DNA of 64,000 nt, from the NCBI GenBank assembly GCA_900323505.1, contig OOIN01000002.1, positions 496,001 through 560,000 on the forward strand, in the 5' to 3' direction. This DNA comes from Ustilago trichophora. Lineage: Eukaryota; Basidiomycota; Ustilaginomycetes; Ustilaginales; Ustilaginaceae. Of the stretch, positions 40,616 to 49,400 are shown piece by piece. A model generated the notes under the pieces. That model saw nothing but the letters and a program-made list of their open reading frames with translations. It did no database searches and was not told where the DNA came from. The position numbers and the translations under genes were made by a program. The number at the start of each line of letters is the position of its first letter. The first letter of the stretch is position 1.

Positions 40616-42927
40616 ATGGTGCTCATTGCTCGTCTTTCCCTCGCCAAGTCGTTTCCTGCTTCCGCTGTCTCTCGTTCTCTTCGCTCGTTCTCTTCAAAGC
40701 TGGATCCCGGTTCCCTGGCTTCGTTTGCTGCTCTTACAACGCCCGCAGCTCCCTCTCCAAGCACTCGACCTTCGAGTCCCAACTCTACCTCCTTTTTCAC
40801 GTCCCGGCGCTTTTTCAGCAGCACATCTGCTACACATCTCGCTACCATGACCTGGACCCCACCCAACCCTACCTCGGTCGGCGCACCGGCCCCTCGTGTG
40901 CCCGAGGACAATCACACCCACTCCAAGGTCGCACAGTACAAGCCTGTCCACCTCCATCTCGACTGGAACATCGACTGGGACGCCCGCATCATCTCGGGTC
41001 GTGTCTCTCACATTATCGAGTTGATCCAGCCCGGTCTGACCTCGATCACTTTGGACGCCAGCTATCTCAAGATCAACTCGGTTCAGGTGGAAGGCAACAA
41101 CGTCGACTATACTCTTGGCACCCAGCGAGGTACTCTCGGTGCTCCTCTTCACATTCCCATCCCGTCTTCGCTCAACAACAAGGGTGACAAGCTGCACGTC
41201 GACATTGACTATACCACCACCCAGCAGTGCACCGCCCTTGGATGGCTCACAAAGGAGCAAACTGCGGGCAAGACCAACCCTTTCCTTTACTCGCAGTGCC
41301 AGGCTATCCACTGCCGATCCCTCGTTCCTTGCATCGACTCGCCTTCGCACAAGATCACCTACACTGCCACCGTCAACTCGCGCATCCCCGTCCTCATGTC
41401 GGCCCTCAAGGACGACTCCAAGCCTAGCCAGACGGGCACTTACCACTTCAAACAGCCTGTTGGTATCCCCTCCTACCTCATCGCTATCGTCGGTGGTGAT
41501 CTCGAGTTCCGCAAGTTGGGTGAGCGAACCGGTATCTGGGCTGAGCCTCCCAACGCCGATGCTGTCCAGTGGGAGTTTGAGGCGGATGCAGAGCGATTCC
41601 TCGAGCATGCTGAGAAGGTCATCTCGCCTTACTCGTGGACTCGTTACGACTCGGTTGTTCTTCCTCCCTCGTTCCCTTACGGTGGTATGGAGAACGCCAA
41701 CTTGACCACTTTGACCCCTTCGCTCGTCTGCGGTGACCGCAGCTTGACCGACGTTTTGCTTCACGAGTTGTGCCACTCTTGGTCTGGAAACTTGACATCG
41801 TGCGCAAACTGGACTCACTTCTGGCTCAACGAGGGCTGGACTGTCTACCTCGAGCGCCTCTTGCTTCAGGACGTCCACGGTCCCAACCAAGGTCCTGCCC
41901 ATCGTGGCTTCTCCTACATCATCGGTTCCAAGGCCCTCAAGGACGCCCTCGAGCAGTTCACCGACAACCCTCGATTCCAGCGTCTCATCCCCGCCTTCAA
42001 GGACGGCGAGGACCCCGATGATGCCTTCTCCTCCATCCCTTACGAGAAGGGCTCCAACTTCCTCCTCTACCTCGAGCGCACCGTTGGAGGCCTCGACAAC
42101 TTTCTCCCTTACGCCAAAAGCTACTTCCACGCCTTTTACAATCGATCCGTCACCACGCAAGAATGGCGCGAGCATCTCTTCACTTTCTACAAGGACAACG
42201 CCGAGGCTACTGCTTCACTCAACAAGGTCGACTGGGATGCCTGGTTCCATGGCGAAGGTTTGGAACTTCCCGTCAAGATGGAGTACGACACTACGCTTGC
42301 CGAGCAGGCTTTCACCCTGGCCAACCGCTGGATTCAGGTGATTGACGGTCAAACTTCGCCCGAGAAGGCCGGTTTCAAGCGCGAAGATATTCAGGGGTGG
42401 AACGCCAACCAGGTCGTAGTGTTTTTGGAGCGTCTGCACTCGGGACCCAAAGTTCCGCTCGCGGTCACTCAGAAGCTGGATGAGGTGTATGAGTTTAGCA
42501 AAGCTACCAACGGCGAAGTGCTGCTTCGATTCTTTGAGGTCGCACTCGAAGTGAAAGGTGGCAAGTACGCACAGCAGGCTGCTGAGTGGGTCAAAGGTCA
42601 AGGAAGGATGAAGTTCTGCAGAACCGTTTACAGGGCTTTGAACAAGGTCGAGCCCGAATTGGCCAAAAAGACTTTCCTCGACAACAAGAGCTTCTACCAC
42701 CCCATTGCTGCTGCGCAGATTGAAAAGGTAAGTTTCACTTCTCTTCCTCTTCCACATTCTTCGTCTCTCCACAACTTTTCCTTCGCTTGTTTCTTCTCTT
42801 TCAACGCGCGACAGCAATTCGCTGTGTGCAGATGGCCATGGCGGACCGTGATGCTGACCCCCGCATCAACGATCATTGCCTCCCCTCTTTCTCTCTCTCC
42901 ACCCTTCTTCAGGACCTTGGACTTTAA
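40616..42927 (+). CDS. Leukotriene-A4-hydrolase-type zinc aminopeptidase, stand-alone splice form
   Basis: Exons 40616-42727 and 42913-42927 give 708 residues ending QIEK-DLGL. M1-family bifunctional enzyme: cytosolic aminopeptidase and epoxide hydrolase. Active-site parts are PYGGMEN (about 355-360) and HELCHS with His383, Glu384, His387 and downstream Glu406 in the zinc motif HEXXH-x18-E. The C-terminal helical repeat domain ends in the conserved FYHPIAAAQIEKDLGL. The first 77 residues before a second in-frame ATG at 40847 (MTWTPPNPTSV) are rich in Arg, Ser and Leu without acids, a mitochondrial-type leader. Initiation at 40616 or 40847 could give mitochondrial and cytosolic forms. The last five codons lie in a tiny exon; a second acceptor at 43038 replaces it and fuses the protein to the next enzyme. 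Confidence 0.93.
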
Positions 42928-43037
42928 TTCTAGCCAGAGAGAAGAAAGCACATTTTTAACTCAATTACAAATCTTATTTGCTTCTCCTCCTTTGTTTGCT
43001 TGATCATCGCTCTTTGTGTCTGTTCCCTCTACTATAG
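42728..43037 (+). other. Alternatively spliced intron with two DLGL-coding acceptors
   Basis: Donor GTAAGT at 42728 follows a complete Lys codon (phase 0). Acceptor 1 (..CTTCTTCAG, exon from 42913) reads GAC CTT GGA CTT TAA. Acceptor 2 (..CTACTATAG, exon from 43038) reads GAT CTT GGC TTG ACC and stays open. Both therefore encode DLGL in the same phase. The intron is 185 nt or 310 nt. The stretch 42928-43037 is intronic in one form and 3' UTR in the other. Confidence 0.8.
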
Positions 43038-44765
43038 GATCTTGGCTTGACCGTTGCGAGGAGACAAACCGGCGATGTAGTGACAATCTTCGGCAGCACC
43101 GGTACAGGCAAAACCAAGCTCTCTGTTGAACTTGCGCTTGCGATCTCTAGCGACCCTGCGCGTTTTGGTGGGTATACAGGGGCGGAAGTCATCTCTTGTG
43201 ACAGTATGCAGATCTATAAAGGTCTGGATATTATTACGAACAAGGCGACTGATGAAGAGATGTCAGGGGTCAAGCATCATTTGTTGGGATTTCTTGATCC
43301 GGCACAGAGCGGCGAAAAGGAGAGTACTTATGATGTGACCAAGTTCGTCGAGGATACAGACCGTATTGCGGGGGAATTGGTGGGGGAAGGGAAAGTTCCG
43401 ATTGTATGTGGTGGAACGACGTATTACTGTCAACATTTGCTGTTTCCTGGACGGCTGATTACCACTTCAGGAGGGGGAGGCGAGGGTGAAGCTGCGGAAA
43501 AAGAGGTGGATCTGGGCAGCGATCCAGCGTATCAGAAGCTGAGTGAGGAGGAGAAGGGGTTGCTGGCTCAGGTGTCGACAGGAAACAGCGCCAAAATGGA
43601 TTTGGCGACGAGAGCGGCGAACGATCCAGAGCTAGGCATGCAACTGTGGAAGTTGCTCAACAAGATCGATCCAGCCATGGCCGCCAGATGGCATTACAAG
43701 GATACAAGAAAAGTGGGCAACTCCCTCCGGGTATTCAAGGAGACCGGTCGTCCGCATTCGCTGTGGATTGCCGAACAAGATGCCCAACAGCAACAGCAAC
43801 AAGACGAGACGCAACAAGACAATGTTGCAGGTGGAGCAAGTGGGGTGCAAGGCGTTTCCAACTATCGAAAATTGCTCCTCTGGCTATGGTGTGATCCACC
43901 GATCCTGCGAAAGCGACTCGACGACCGAGTGGATGAAATGGTACGACGAGGTTTGGAAGCAGAAGTACGCCAGATGCGCAACATAGCCAAACGTATTCTG
44001 GACGATATTGTTTCCACCTCTGCTTGTGCGAATTATCAATCGGGTATCTTTCAAACCATTGGATATCGACAATTTGCCGAATACCTGGATCGTCTCGAAA
44101 TTCTCTCTACCATCAATGGCATCACGACAAAGCAACAGCAACAGTGGTTTGACAAGGCAACTGAAGATACCAAAACCGCGACACGACAATATGCCAAATC
44201 GCAGCTGAAATGGGTTCGAAACAAGTTGATTCCGGAAGTTAGACGTTTACAAGCAGCTAGTCTTTCGTCGGATGTAGAGTTATATCTGCTAGATACTTCC
44301 AATGTGGAACAGTGGGAGGAAAAGGTTGTTGAACCAGCCTTGCGAGTAGTTTCTACCTTTTTGAACAAGGAAAAGCTACCGGATCCGGTTGAGATTTCGA
44401 ACCCAAGCGCAGTTCAACAGTACCTCTATTCGGGTAGAACGCCAAATCAGGCTTTGTCCAAGCTGCAAAACCACCCAACTTACTCGGATCCAAATGGAGG
44501 GGAAGGATTGCGCACAATACAAGCAAACAAAATGTTCACTTGCAAAGTATGCACCTTCAACCCCTCCCATCCAGTCCTCGTACGTGAAATCGACAGAGAA
44601 TCCCACCAAAAAGCCAGACATCACAGAAACAACATCATCAGAAAAATCTCCCCTCAAGAAAAGGAACTCAGAATCAAACTCAAAATCGCTCAAGGCCAAA
44701 AATTAACAGCCCAAAGACAACAATCAAAACACTTGCCAAAAAACGACGACCGACAGCAGAATTAA
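43038..44765 (+). CDS. tRNA dimethylallyltransferase (Mod5/TRIT1 type), probably expressed as C-terminal half of a fusion
   Basis: 575 codons, open from the acceptor at 43038 to the TAA at 44763-44765. An in-frame TAG sits immediately before the acceptor, and the first in-frame ATG is the Met of CDSMQIYKG, which lies after the P-loop. A stand-alone start would thus lose the ATP site, so I take this exon as joined to the aminopeptidase (1279 residues in all). The enzyme adds a dimethylallyl group to A37 of tRNAs reading UNN codons. Visible motifs: P-loop TIFGSTGTGKTKLS, VISCDSMQIYKGLDI-ITNK, VCGGTTYYCQHLLFPGR, DPAMAARWHYKDTRKVGNSL, and the C-terminal zinc finger CKVC-x18-H-x5-H near 500-530. 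A Gln-rich insert at about 43785-43830 is lineage-specific. Confidence 0.92.
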   Translation, partial: DLGLTVARRQTGDVVTIFGSTGTGKTKLSVELALAISSDPARFGGYTGAEVISCDSMQIYKGLDIITNKATDEEMSGVKHHLLGFLDPAQSGEKESTYDVTKFVEDTDRIAGELVGEGKVPIVCGGTTYYCQHLLFPGRLITTSGGGGEGEAAEKEVDLGSDPAYQKLSEEEKGLLAQVSTGNSAKMDLATRAANDPELGMQLWKLLNKIDPAMAARWHYKDTRKVGNSLRVFKETGRPHSLWIAEQDAQQQQQQDETQQDNVAGGASGVQGVSNYRKLLLWLWCDPPILRKRLDDRVDEMVRRGLEAEVRQMRNIAKRILDDIVSTSACANYQSGIFQTIGYRQFAEYLDRLEILSTINGITTKQQQQWFDKATEDTKTATRQYAKSQLKWVRNKLIPEVRRLQAASLSSDVELYLLDTSNVEQWEEKVVEPALRVVSTFLNKEKLPDPVEISNPSAVQQYLYSGRTPNQALSKLQNHPTYSDPNGGEGLRTIQANKMFTCKVCTFNPSHPVLVREIDRESHQKARHHRNNIIRKISPQEKELRIKLKIAQGQKLTAQRQQSKHLPKNDDRQQN

Positions 44766-44968
44766 AAACGTTTCACATGCTCATACATTCGTGATCTCTT
44801 GTTGAATAGTATAACCCTCGAAGCGTACGAGCGATTCTTCCTTTTTTTCCAGCGCGTGCGTCGAGGACATACTAAGCTCACTTCTTGAGATGCAACAAAG
44901 ATGCATATTACCATCAAACATGCAAACAAGGATTCTACATGCAACTAGTTTCCGACAGATTGGACTCA

Positions 44969-45131
44969 TCATACCGCCTGAGTGGCATCTATCTCGATAG
45001 CGGGCACGATCGAAGCCATAAACTTGAGAAAGATGATCATGTACTGATCTACGCGCAATCCTTCCACTTCTTCGTCTGCCGTCTCTGCGCCTCCTTCTGC
45101 TGGTGTGGCAGCTGCTCCATCTTTTGCCTCC

Positions 45132-45163
<32 letters not shown>

Positions 45164-46409
45164 GCTTGCCTCCGCACCCGCACCACCACCACCTGTAACA
45201 CGCTTGACCGCACTACTCAAACCCCAGCCCTTCTTCTTCTTCTTCTCGCCCACCGGCGCGGCCCCTGATGCAGCAGCAGCCTTCTTCTGCTCCTCAATCA
45301 CCGATGCGTTCATACGTTCAATAACCTTTTTCATCACACTGGCGTGCTTGCAAGGATGAATGCTGGCGGTTGCTACACCGACGGTGGATGCTGATGAGGT
45401 GGCGGAGCTGTCTGGTCCGGCATGGCCGTGGGGGAATGGCTCGATGGTGACCGTCTTCTGCGCATAGTCTGATGAAACGTCTTCAAAGATCTGTGCGGGC
45501 TTGAGGGGGACTCCATGCTCGTCGTAGCCTACGAGCCACATGCGTGGTGTTTGGTAGTACTTGTCGTAGGTGATGATGCAGTCGTATTTGCGGACGGAGA
45601 GGAGTTTTCCATTGTCGCCGACGGTGGAAGTGGAGGTAGGCAGGGTGGGAGGAGCGGCCGTGGCTGGGTCATCTTCTTCTTCGATACCACCGGCGAGGTC
45701 GTCCATCTCGTCGTCCATATCTGGGATATCAGGGATGTCGGGAATATCGCCGATGTCGTTGGCGGATGAAGAAGGTTCGAGTGAAGAGCCTGCTTGACCA
45801 ACACTGATGCCGGCAACGCGAGCAGCAAGATCATCTTCCTGACCCTCTGTCAGCTGGTGCTCTGGTGCAGACTGATCCTCTCCGATGTCTGGAATGTCGA
45901 GCATTTCGGCTGTGCGACTGCTGGGTCCGCCTTGCTGGTCAAAGTGAGTTGCGACCCACTGATCATCCTCGCCCGCATCTTCGCCACTCTCGTCAAAGCT
46001 CATGAGCTTTTCATCGTCCTCCTTGAGCCCAACGCCGACGCCCTTTTCAATCTGACCAACACGGCGCAAGGATGGGACACCGCAAGAGATGAGGAATTGC
46101 TTGTCCTTGGGCAGATAATCGCGTGCTTTCGATGGGCTGCCGGCACACCACTGCCATGTGGGGAATTTGTATGAAAGAAAGTCACCAGCCGCTACGAACT
46201 CGTCTGTCATAATACAGATCAGGCACAAACAGCAAGAAAGAGAAGCAAGTTTACATGTCAGCTACCTCTTCATACAAAGCAGAGATGAGCTAGCGATAAC
46301 GGAGCTACATACCTGGTGTGATCCTGCCATGCTCCTTGAACTTGGATTCTCTCAGTACAGGAGAGAGGTATTCTCGCACAGCCCAAAAGTGGGTCTGCAG
46401 TGTGTTCAT
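44969..46409 (-). CDS. ATG3: Autophagy E2-like enzyme Atg3
   Basis: Two exons, 46313-46409 and 44969-46203, give 443 residues. Exon 1 encodes [20 protein letters not shown] and [12 protein letters not shown]; the 109-nt intron (GTATGT..CAG) splits an Asp codon before [18 protein letters not shown]. Atg3 passes Atg8 from Atg7 to phosphatidylethanolamine. Visible are the N-terminal amphipathic helix, the flexible acidic region with tandem IPD triplets, the E2 core ([35 protein letters not shown]), the catalytic Cys in HPCKHASV, and the family end [20 protein letters not shown]. Between catalytic Cys and the C-terminus there is a 60-70 residue insert rich in Lys, Gly and Ala with a poly-Ala run coded by a GCN repeat (about 45136-45165). 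It is therefore longer than yeast Atg3 (about 310). The 3' end is 203 bp from the converging transferase gene. Confidence 0.96.
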
Positions 46410-49400
46410 GTTGTTGTGCTCTGCGACCAGTCGAGATCGACAAAGTAAAGAATTGCTGTGTCGAGATGAGTCTGTATAGTTGGCAAACGAGCTGAGTTGA
46501 TGGTGTGAATAGTGTGGGGTTGAAAAGGCTGGTTGCGCAGCACAGGTTGTTGCGTGTGTGTGCGGGCGTGAAGCAAGCGCCTCAGCTGAGCTTTAGATGG
46601 TCCGTGTTCCGGCAGTGTGTGAAATGTTTATGGATTGCGACTTTTTAGACCCTGAACGACACGCCGGCTTTTTCGGACTCAGAGTGTTAGATGCAAACTC
46701 AAAAACATTGGCTTGCAGAAAAAAAAAGAAAAAAAGGTGCTAAATTGAGGTTGTGAAAATAGGCTGATAAGTAGAACGTCGCTCCAACGCCTACATTCCT
46801 GGCCACAGCCATCAGCAGTGTCCCCGCTGTCCGCCGTCCAAATCAGCTTGCACGAGATCTAGCGGTTAGACGAGCAAAATCATTCCATCGCCCAGTGCAT
46901 AGTAAGGCCACGTACCGCAGTGTCGGGTTTCCAAACTTCGATGGTGCGTGAGGCGCAACATCTGAGCCAAAAAAAAACCCATCTACCGGCCAACAGGAGG
47001 GTCTCTTTCAAGGCAATCGTTTCAGGTACCGGAAGTGTAGCCTCGGAAAAAGCTGCTGTACAACAATCCATCATTATCCGGAATCTGGACTGGCGGTTTC
47101 CCGATGCCAGCAGATATCACAAGGTGTGTGTTACAGTATCACCAGCATCGACCTATCAACCAAAACATGGAGTCGCTACCCGTGTGAGACTCAAAACGCG
47201 ATAGCCCCCACATACTTAAGATCGAGAGGCCATACCATATCATGTGAGCATGCGCGCGCTTTCAGTGCACAGCTGGCCAAATGGTCCCGACAGGGTTGGC
47301 CGACGATTTCGGAGCTTGTTGCCGTGTGTGTGTGTGCGTGTGTGCGTGTGTGCATGTGTGCTATGCTCGTTTAGACAGAGAGCGGACACTGAATGCTAGT
47401 CGAAAGAGCATGAGTGAGCGCAAAAAGCAGAACGCATGATGGTCTGGACTCGTGGCACGGCCAAGTGGAACTGACTCTGAAAGGTGGACCCCACAACCAA
47501 GATGTGGATTGCGCAGCTTTGTTCACACAAGGCGGCAGCAGGCGGTTGCAGGGTTGCTTGTGTGCTACCGTGCGAGCAAATATGCAGCACAGCGGGAAAG
47601 GAAAGGTCGCCTGCGTACGCTTGGAAATTTTGACGTTTGCATTTCATAGGCGGTCACAAAAAAAAGTGCGTCGCTGAAATACGGCAATAGGCAGTGTTCA
47701 TCACTGCAAGCGAGGCTCCAACCGACGCTCCGATCCGCACGTCAAAAATAAAAGCGACGCAGTGAGGTCATGACGATCGAAGAGTGCCTCGGTCAAGCGC
47801 CTAAAATGCGCCTATGTCCGGGTCTTTGCATTGAGCCACACTCAAGTTCTACCGCTCCACCCCTTACTTAGTTTTGTGTTCACAAATTGACTCCATCACG
47901 CAGCTGAATCCTCTCCACATCCTCGTTTTGTCTTCGGCGATCCATCCTTTAAGCGAGCTTCCGGGATCCATGTCCCGCCCCTCGATTCCTGACAAGACGT
48001 TGCCCAAGTGTCTGGGCAGTGCCGTGTATGAGATAGGGCTCGGAGTGCAAGACCGTATCCGACCCCGAAAAAAAAATGAGATTCTCTTCTGCGAGCCCCT
48101 AAATCAAGCAAGCTAGACACAGATTGATCTAGCCTCGGCTAGGTTCGTTCACATTGCCGCTGTTCGGTTGGCCGATGGATCAGAAGCAGCGTGGAACTCG
48201 CAGTAAGGCTGTGCGATTTCAGCGAAAGCAAACGCCGTGGTGACCCATGAGGTTCTGCATTCAGTACCCTGCTACCCTGTTGCTCTCATTCGGCCGATGT
48301 TGGCACCGAGGACAGCCAAGAAAAAAAGAGGTGCAACAAATATTAGGTAAGTGTAGCAGCGATGCTCGCTGGTCTACACATGACAAACACGGAGAAGGGC
48401 AGAGATTAAGATGGACAGCCGGAGCTTGGCGAGGCGTAGGTGACGCTTGGATTCCTATGTACGGCGTGATTGTTCGAAAGAGAATCCTCAGAATTCCGCT
48501 GCAGTGCACAGTGTCTGTATGGCAAGCTGACTATGCAAGAATTTCTAGAATACCAAAAACATGGTTGTGGCTGCGTCACAACACGCCAATGCAACTATCG
48601 GATGCCGGTCATTCGACCTTTTTTTTTTCTCTCGAGCGTATTCACAGACTTGAGCCGCTCATGTGAACATCGAAAGCTGCTCATTCGTGGAGGCTCTGCA
48701 TTGCCGAGTTACTGGCGACTGAAAAACGAGGACGGGCGAGGTACAGAGAAAGTAGCGCAAGCAGTTCACACGGAACTCGGACGGCCCCACGGAAACAAAC
48801 AACGGTAGATTGAATGGGCTTTGGAGGCCAACAATAGTACATCGATCCTGAAGGAAATGCGAAACGGTCGAGCCGAGGAAATTTCCAACGCGAACTAGCT
48901 TACTGTACATAACTTCTGCCTGTGGAAAGTGTATGTTGATACACTGTAGCTCAAAATAAGAGGCACAATGGAGGGCAGGGAAGGAAAGAGGAGGAGGAAA
49001 GAGGAGGAAGGCAAACAAGGCTTGGCCATCTGTCTGGGCATTGCCAAATTTCAAAACCCGGGACGCCGAAAGGATACGCGCACAGTTGCACTCCGCGGCT
49101 GTCAATGTGCTTGTGGTGGGCTGGACTTGGTTGAGAACAGGGATTTGTGTACCACTCAACTGAGACACAGAGGCAGTCAAGGTCAAGGTGGGATGTTTGG
49201 AACGGACGCCCTCTTCAGGGAACTCGACTCGAGTCGAGAAGCATCCTGCTCCCAGCCGTATTGATTCGCAGCAGCTGAGTGCAGCGCATTGCCTTTTCGG
49301 TGCCACGCCTGTCAACCGCTAGCAACCGCTAGCAACCGCAATTTCGATCCGCGTGGATTCTGGACTTGGCCAGCCGCTGCGCTTCTTGAACTTCTTTCTC

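Follow-up and report, generated by a model that had tools for sequence, protein, structure and literature searches.

How is a tRNA dimethylallyltransferase (IPT) translated if no ATG precedes its P-loop? This question is raised by a locus of the smut fungus Ustilago trichophora, where the coding region of an aminopeptidase of the LTA4-hydrolase (LTA4H) type is followed by that of an IPT. The locus lies in a window of 64,000 nucleotides (nt), which is the whole stretch of DNA analysed here (contig OOIN01000002.1, positions 496,001 to 560,000, forward strand), from a 38.8-Mb assembly in 45 contigs (GCA_900323505.1). It has a phase-0 donor at 42728 and two acceptors 125 nt apart. We are fairly confident that these constitute an ancient alternative 3' splice-site switch, by which the aminopeptidase is made either alone or fused to the IPT; for U. 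trichophora itself, use of the switch is predicted from the sequence.

One donor and two acceptors

The elements of the locus, with positions counted from the first letter of the window, are the following.

40616..42727, plus strand: coding exon of the aminopeptidase (LTA4H/M1 family), 704 codons, ending with ...HPIAAAQIEK in phase 0
42728..42733, plus strand: shared 5' splice site GTAAGT, directly 3' of QIEK, phase 0
42913..42927, plus strand: micro-exon of acceptor 1, CAG/GAC CTT GGA CTT TAA, coding for DLGL and a stop, which would end a stand-alone aminopeptidase
43038..44765, plus strand: exon of acceptor 2, ATAG/GAT CTT GGC TTG ACC, coding for DLGL and the complete IPT, 575 codons and a stop

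When the sequence was re-read, everything that the initial annotation had placed here was recovered: the donor, both acceptors with their spacing, the TAA, the in-frame TAG at 43035-43037 immediately 5' of acceptor 2, and the length of the fused product (704 + 575 = 1279 residues). The first open reading frame (ORF) contains the Pfam domains Peptidase_M1_N (PF17900), Peptidase_M1 (PF01433) and Leuk-A4-hydro_C (PF09127), each above its cut-off, and solved LTA4H structures align along the close relative P0140 (the protein entries compared are cited by P numbers). The zinc motif of the LTA4H type consists of HExxH followed by NEGW...E; the translation contains HELCH and NEGWTVYLE.

The Leuk-A4-hydro_C profile is already at position 110 of 112 when the exon reaches QIEK. 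The claim that DLGL is the end to be expected for this family after QIEK was borne out: the LTA4H structure 2xpy, presumably from yeast, terminates exactly in DLGL, and among 41 usable rows outside the subphylum (P0197-P0250) DLGL comes right after the same exon-end position in 24 and D-[LIM] in 38. By its domains, motifs and C-terminus the first ORF is thus assigned to the LTA4H-type M1 aminopeptidases, and the corresponding enzyme activity is predicted. The second ORF contains an IPPT domain (PF01715, 186.5 bits) with the P-loop GSTGTGKT and a DSMQ motif, and its exon aligns to the structure 3eph across P-loop, DSMQ and core. Towards the C-terminus its translation has a CxxC...H pattern, in a region where the alignment to 3eph is below threshold (-1.9 bits).

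Splicing to acceptor 1 would add DLGL and a stop and thereby yield a normal LTA4H-type aminopeptidase. Splicing to acceptor 2 would skip the stop of acceptor 1, add the second DLGL and run into the IPT. The duplicated DLGL would preserve the ancestral aminopeptidase C-terminus in both products.

A diverged second copy of the locus is present in the same genome, on contig C1 (the window is on C2), with alike gene order and spacing. Between the copies the amino-acid identity is 94% for the aminopeptidase and 82% for the IPT. In the second copy (hereafter the homeolog) the donor is retained, acceptor 1 is again followed by DLGL and TAA, and acceptor 2 again leads into DLGL and the IPT. The first 10 nt of the intron are identical (10/10), as are 14 of the 15 nt of the micro-exon with its stop and 19 of the last 22 nt of the intron; identity amounts to 41/98 in the early intron, 23/30 in the tract before acceptor 1 and 48/89 between the stop and acceptor 2. 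Because the homeolog keeps every element and related fungi show traces of both acceptors (see below), the anatomy is beyond chance. An assembly error between the two genes, which had been named as a possible source of the arrangement, is unlikely, since the arrangement is repeated on another contig with matching order and spacing.

Both copies are part of collinear diverged regions (40616-46775 in the window), with about 80% DNA identity across 44001-46775, and a more distantly related M1 peptidase likewise forms such a pair. The genome looks like that of a hybrid or a diverged diploid. The accessible part of PMC8951962 leaves the doubled genome of the strain unexplained. Synonymous divergence (Ks) between the copies differs more than twofold between the halves of the locus (0.28 for 40616-42727 vs 0.69 for 43038-44762), in agreement with the codon-bias contrast of these halves described below.

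The start of the transferase

Two in-frame ATGs are relevant to the start of the IPT.

43206..43208, plus strand: first in-frame ATG of the IPT exon, inside DSMQ and 3' of the P-loop
42608..42610, plus strand: nested in-frame ATG in the aminopeptidase exon; of the ATGs from about 42560 onwards it alone can reach the P-loop by way of a good GT donor, with the shared donor spliced to acceptor 2

The initial annotation had described the IPT exon as preceded by a TAG and free of ATGs until past the P-loop, and this description held. Residues 1-56 of the IPT all lie 5' of the first ATG; between the copies their nonsynonymous divergence (Ka) is 0.046 at a Ks of 0.742, and the first 15 residues past acceptor 2 are identical. 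Such strong constraint at the protein level means that translation must come in from upstream.

In public models the ATG after the P-loop is used as the start of the IPT. MQIYKGLD is the start of P0023, P0025 (U. trichophora), P0029 (U. esculenta) and P0035 (S. reilianum), and MQIYQGLD that of P0037 (Thecaphora frezii). On a rival view, the locus consists of two ordinary neighbouring genes, as in the public U. trichophora annotation (P0025, P0139), the second DLGL is coincidental, and the IPT starts at the annotated ATG or at a non-AUG codon. However, the annotated start drops the P-loop, and human TRIT1 cut to begin at the matching DSMQ methionine was inactive (PMC7200024). DLGL-like residues before the P-loop also recur in relatives beyond shuffled controls, and a fused frame without the intron exists (both below). 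We give the two-gene explanation hardly any chance.

A start of its own was sought by pairing all possible GT donors and AG acceptors for each ATG between about 42560 and the P-loop, allowing a single intron of at least 40 nt. Of the routes that stayed open, 19 in the window and 12 in its homeolog, just one per copy had a well-formed donor (at least 3 of 4 consensus positions). In both copies this sole well-formed route passes through the junction 42727^43038, and an independent IPT start from an ATG by way of one GT-donor intron is therefore rejected.

The scan revealed a route absent from the initial annotation, that from the nested ATG at 42608. Possibly, the IPT is made from a shorter transcript begun inside the aminopeptidase gene, starting at this ATG (MKFCRTVYRALNK...) and spliced from the shared donor to acceptor 2, which would give it a 40-residue leader in place of the full aminopeptidase. 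In neither copy does another ATG of the scanned region reach the P-loop by a well-formed route, and the leader opens with basic residues. Yet it sits in the LTA4H motif GRMKF, which is common to 2xpy, so that its conservation needs no second role, and the entry P0005 described below has the full fused frame from MVLSAH... without the intron. A nested start is thus an unlikely, if thinkable, source of the IPT.

A six-frame search of the genome, with PF01715 at E<=10 and with the protein, gave no additional IPT, although it could miss an intron-rich gene; by the same search the IPT is located solely at this locus, once per copy. As this IPT has no evident usable start, the fusion likely provides its start codon. 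Probably, it would also provide the address of the IPT, for the aminopeptidase begins with the following element.

40616..40843, plus strand: predicted mitochondrial presequence, 76 codons, with 8 R/K and 1 D/E (12 and 0 in the homeolog)

The first ATG at 40616 has T at -3. The second in-frame ATG at 40844 has A at -3 and opens the sequence MTWTPP, with no ATG in between; the public model P0139 of the homeolog starts at MTWTPP. Initiation at the first AUG, in its weak context, would give a form that carries the mitochondrial presequence; ribosomes passing it by leaky scanning and starting at the second AUG would make a cytosolic form. Such targeting through two AUGs is in keeping with the fact that enzymes of this family must act on the tRNAs of mitochondria as well as on those of the cytosol. 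The effective number of codons is 39.8 for the aminopeptidase vs 55.3 for the IPT (38.5 vs 55.5 in the homeolog). This codon bias suggests, indirectly, that the fusion is a minor product and the short form the main one.

Fusions and acceptor traces in related fungi

A search for long proteins with the IPT half of the fusion, in which the best 7994 candidates were scored, returned 20 proteins, and the counts from it are lower bounds. All aminopeptidase and IPT domains were present in 12 of the 20; with P0158 and P0161, which were among the 120 proteins listed in another search, there are at least 14 fused entries. All of them are predictions from sequence (gene models or ORF calls) and not proteins that have been measured, and P0004-P0006 come from one species. 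Eight of the 14 join directly at the exon end. In seven of these D-L comes next (DLAL in P0003 and P0158, DLGL in P0004, P0005 and P0008, DLNL in P0013, DLAP in P0161), and in P0012 SLTQDIAV. The joined entries span three classes of Ustilaginomycotina. Named species among them are Pseudozyma hubeiensis and Melanopsichium pennsylvanicum (Ustilaginomycetes), Sympodiomycopsis kandeliae and Exobasidium rhododendri (Exobasidiomycetes), Malassezia cuniculi (Malasseziomycetes) and M. vespertilionis.

One relative has the fused frame in two states, with the intron and free of it. P0006, an entry of 30 member sequences with a longest contig of 17.8 kb, reads across an intron of 129 codons, QIEK-VSRPVG...VGGLQ-DLGL, whose ends VS and LQ fit GTNAGY...CAG. 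P0004 is P0006 minus precisely this stretch (IEK/DLGL) and otherwise differs at 3 of 1176 residues. P0005 comprises the whole of P0004 and 72 additional N-terminal residues and is a complete, intron-free fused frame. The entries labelled 'lgn' resemble intron-blind ORF calls (P0024 has Met where the window has a TTG codon), and thus we infer that P0004 and P0005 are assembled spliced RNA.

In the predicted structure of P0004 (mean predicted local distance difference test score 84, predicted template modelling score 0.57) there are two mostly confident domains and a low-confidence linker, residues 633-638, between a helix ending at 628 and the first strand before the P-loop. Two mostly confident domains with such a linker make the fusion plausible. 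Furthermore, in 9 of 24 IPT rows the size of the longest contig was identical to that of one of 20 aminopeptidase rows, in sets that were hand-picked and are no random sample; one of the pairs is the homeolog.

The acceptors of the relatives were deduced from protein sequences. For acceptor 1, tails of models that read through the exon end were tested for peptides permitting an out-of-frame AG/GAY-Leu-GGN-Leu-stop (signatures RILV[SF][ED] and GSWSL). The scan comprised 33 tails, from 31 relatives and both U. trichophora copies. P0151, P0153, P0155 and P0157 (near-identical and represented by P0152), P0139, P0009 and, from outside the subphylum, P0201 and P0239 were left out; a row was usable only if its exon end could be recognised and had not already been joined by splicing. 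The strict DLGL-stop motif was present in 16 of the 33 tails (15 of the 31 relatives) vs 0.41 expected (maximum 2 in 200 shuffles), in rows that are related and not independent and with a pattern that had first been spotted by eye in P0006, P0007 and P0019. A relaxed motif, defined after the tails had been viewed, was present in 27 of 33 vs 2.5 expected (maximum 7 in 30 shuffles). The strict matches include P0006, whose species also has the intron-free fusion; the eight rows left out gave none. Four of the six tails without a relaxed match are peptides of 6-14 residues (P0176 has 13, P0181 has 10), and of these four the homeolog has DLGL-TAA at the DNA level, while QDIGL is the in-frame end of P0152. 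The basidiomycete models P0201 and P0239 run into V-S or V-R at the exon end, which hints that the intron before a tiny last exon predates the fusion.

These traces bear on another explanation, namely that acceptor 2 is used constitutively or nearly so, which would make the locus a simple gene fusion with acceptor 1 as a minor site or a relic. Several relatives are indeed annotated as plain fusions. In contrast, acceptor 1 and its stop are retained in both homeologs and can be traced in relatives, and the stand-alone models P0140 (S. scitamineum) and P0143 (U. nuda) end with QIEKDLGL. Acceptor 1 is also the pyrimidine-richer one (see below), and codon bias is sharply unlike between the halves of the locus. 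A simple fusion is therefore very improbable in our view.

Acceptor 2 was searched for as D-[LI]-x-[LIVP] or TLGL within 70 residues before the P-loop in 26 proteins, including that of the window. A second DLGL in relatives had been put forward as a check on the switch. On protein sequences the motif was found in 16 of the 26 vs 2.6 in shuffles (maximum 7 in 1000), and one match, in P0050, is discounted because it is part of the P-loop strand. The variants were DLGL, DLAL, DLNL, DLNI, DLSL, DLAP, DIAV and TLGL, and several of the motif-negative proteins start downstream of the acceptor-2 site. Separately, P0040 from Meira miltonrushii has three repeats of about 24 residues (MGQDxxLxxAGDVT...) before the P-loop, the first of which opens with QDLSL. 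They resemble a multiplied acceptor segment, and this QDLSL is outside the stretch searched for acceptor 2.

Several points weigh against the switch or parts of it. The public U. trichophora models bypass it, as P0139 ends in the intron and P0025 starts after the P-loop. An earlier study, cited in PMC7200024, had the truncated TRIT1 form active in suppression. Six of the 14 fused entries (P0006, P0007, P0009, P0014, P0017, P0019) read through V-S or V-R intron-like residues and by themselves are no splicing evidence. The source label 'lgn', borne by P0004-P0007 and others, comes without an explanation, so that the RNA nature of P0004 and P0005 is something we infer. The strict motif is missing in 17 of the 33 introns and the relaxed one in 6; P0009 has neither a strict match nor D-L-x-L before its P-loop, and P0014 and P0017 likewise have neither. 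The Tilletia IPTs P0038 and P0046 carry ATGs 5' of the P-loop, and the fusion is thus not required by every member of the subphylum. There are ATGs 159-270 nt 5' of the first start (158-239 in the homeolog) that, if transcribed, could disturb simple leaky scanning. Finally, the low codon bias of the IPT may have causes other than low output.

With these points taken into account, the initial proposal of a splice switch with a predicted 1279-residue fusion is supported by the conservation of the homeolog, the joins in eight of the 14 fused entries, the frame with and without intron, and the DLGL-stop acceptors hidden in the tails. The same comparative evidence backs the proposal that the doubled DLGL keeps the aminopeptidase end in both forms.

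Intron signals and comparison with known systems

Three elements stand out within the intron.

42821..42899, plus strand: conserved block, 72 of 82 alignment columns identical between the homeologs, as against 41/98 in the preceding part of the intron
42843..42859, plus strand: GGACCGTGATGCTGACC, holding the branch-point-like CTGAC (42854-42858), about 55 nt 5' of acceptor 1
42956..42960, plus strand: TTAAC, branch-point-like site of acceptor 2, kept as TTAAC in the homeolog and followed by an AG-free stretch up to acceptor 2

A branch-point-like site, a pyrimidine-rich stretch and an AG are present for each acceptor separately, with no AG between the site and its acceptor, and both CTGAC and TTAAC are retained in the homeolog. 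The pyrimidine content is richer at acceptor 1 (0.95 and 0.82) than at acceptor 2 (0.77). The 17-mer GGACCGTGATGCTGACC has two exact matches in the genome, one per copy of the locus, and 13 more places match at 2 mismatches. Judged by eye, the read-through peptides of P0006, P0141 and P0142 permit sequence resembling it. A coding or RNA role of the conserved block was rejected, as by eye the ATG frames inside it do not remain open into the IPT in both copies, and no Rfam family at E<=1 was found within 42600-43200. The block is likely a branch-point region under some extra constraint.

The last 60 nt of the aminopeptidase exon (42668-42727) are identical between the homeologs (60/60) despite an exon Ks of about 0.28, possibly as an exonic splicing signal. 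Downstream of the locus, at 44972-46207 on the minus strand, a gene with an Autophagy_act_C domain (PF03987) follows, as in Atg3-type proteins.

A wider reading is offered tentatively, and we rate its chance somewhat below even. Across much of Ustilaginomycotina the IPT would no longer be made independently but only at the C-terminal end of an unrelated aminopeptidase, and leaky scanning past the presequence of the latter would bring it to mitochondria and cytosol. One 3' splice choice, made harmless to the aminopeptidase by a duplicated four-codon exon, would then set the amount of tRNA-i6A37 and of the cytokinins derived from it, and the 17-nt branch-point element may tune this choice. The switch itself would account for several public smut IPT models that begin after the P-loop, and would be a case of a start codon, perhaps also targeting, borrowed through alternative splicing. 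The duplicated micro-exon would solve the problem of retaining the C-terminus of the first enzyme. Fungal tRNA-IPTs are considered as a cytokinin source, and measuring or removing a smut IPT affects a locus shared with an aminopeptidase. Hence both products are to be followed in IPT studies.

We know of no shared pathway or metabolic link between the aminopeptidase and the tRNA modifier. No description of this fusion or switch was found among the open-access titles and abstract openings listed, and the accessible parts of PMC8199642 and PMC10077639 do not touch the structure of the locus. Splice-switched two-enzyme loci are already known; new here would be the joining of unrelated enzymes and the duplicated terminal micro-exon.

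In primates, the fusion CSB-PGBD3 is expressed alongside full-length CSB because transcripts can alternatively be spliced to a coding exon further downstream (PMC3459987). There, the coding exon belongs to a transposon inserted into an intron, and the fusion has only CSB exons 1-5, whereas the Ustilago locus joins two complete enzymes. A smut example is the GAPDH of Ustilago maydis, where alternative splicing gives a C-terminally extended isoform with peroxisomal targeting (PMC3798809). The extension is likewise made by splicing, but in U. trichophora it would be a complete second enzyme. MOD5 belongs to the same enzyme family as TRIT1 and the Ustilago IPT and is supplied to mitochondria and cytosol by means of two AUGs, of which the second has the better context (PMC7200024). 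Unlike the Ustilago IPT, which likely takes both from the fused aminopeptidase, MOD5 and TRIT1 come with a start and a targeting signal of their own.

The closest precedents are MOCS1 of animals and nit-7 of Neurospora crassa. In MOCS1, alternative splicing where the first enzyme ends leads either to MOCS1A alone or to a MOCS1AB fusion; the active second enzyme derives from the fusion, and alternative forms are mitochondrial or cytosolic (PMC9607355). The likeness consists in one enzyme made alone or as a fusion by alternative splicing, which at the Ustilago locus is predicted from its sequence. However, MOCS1A and MOCS1B act one after the other in a single pathway, and it is the Ustilago locus that has a doubled micro-exon saving the C-terminus of the first enzyme in both forms. 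nit-7 is a two-enzyme locus with one intron, in which mitochondrial import of the second enzyme needs the fusion (PMC7232280). In nit-7 the short form comes from the unspliced transcript and the fusion from the spliced one, whereas the Ustilago locus would choose between two acceptors. Cleavage after import has been demonstrated for nit-7; the Ustilago fusion may be cleaved as well. By analogy with these two systems, the Ustilago locus would work alike.

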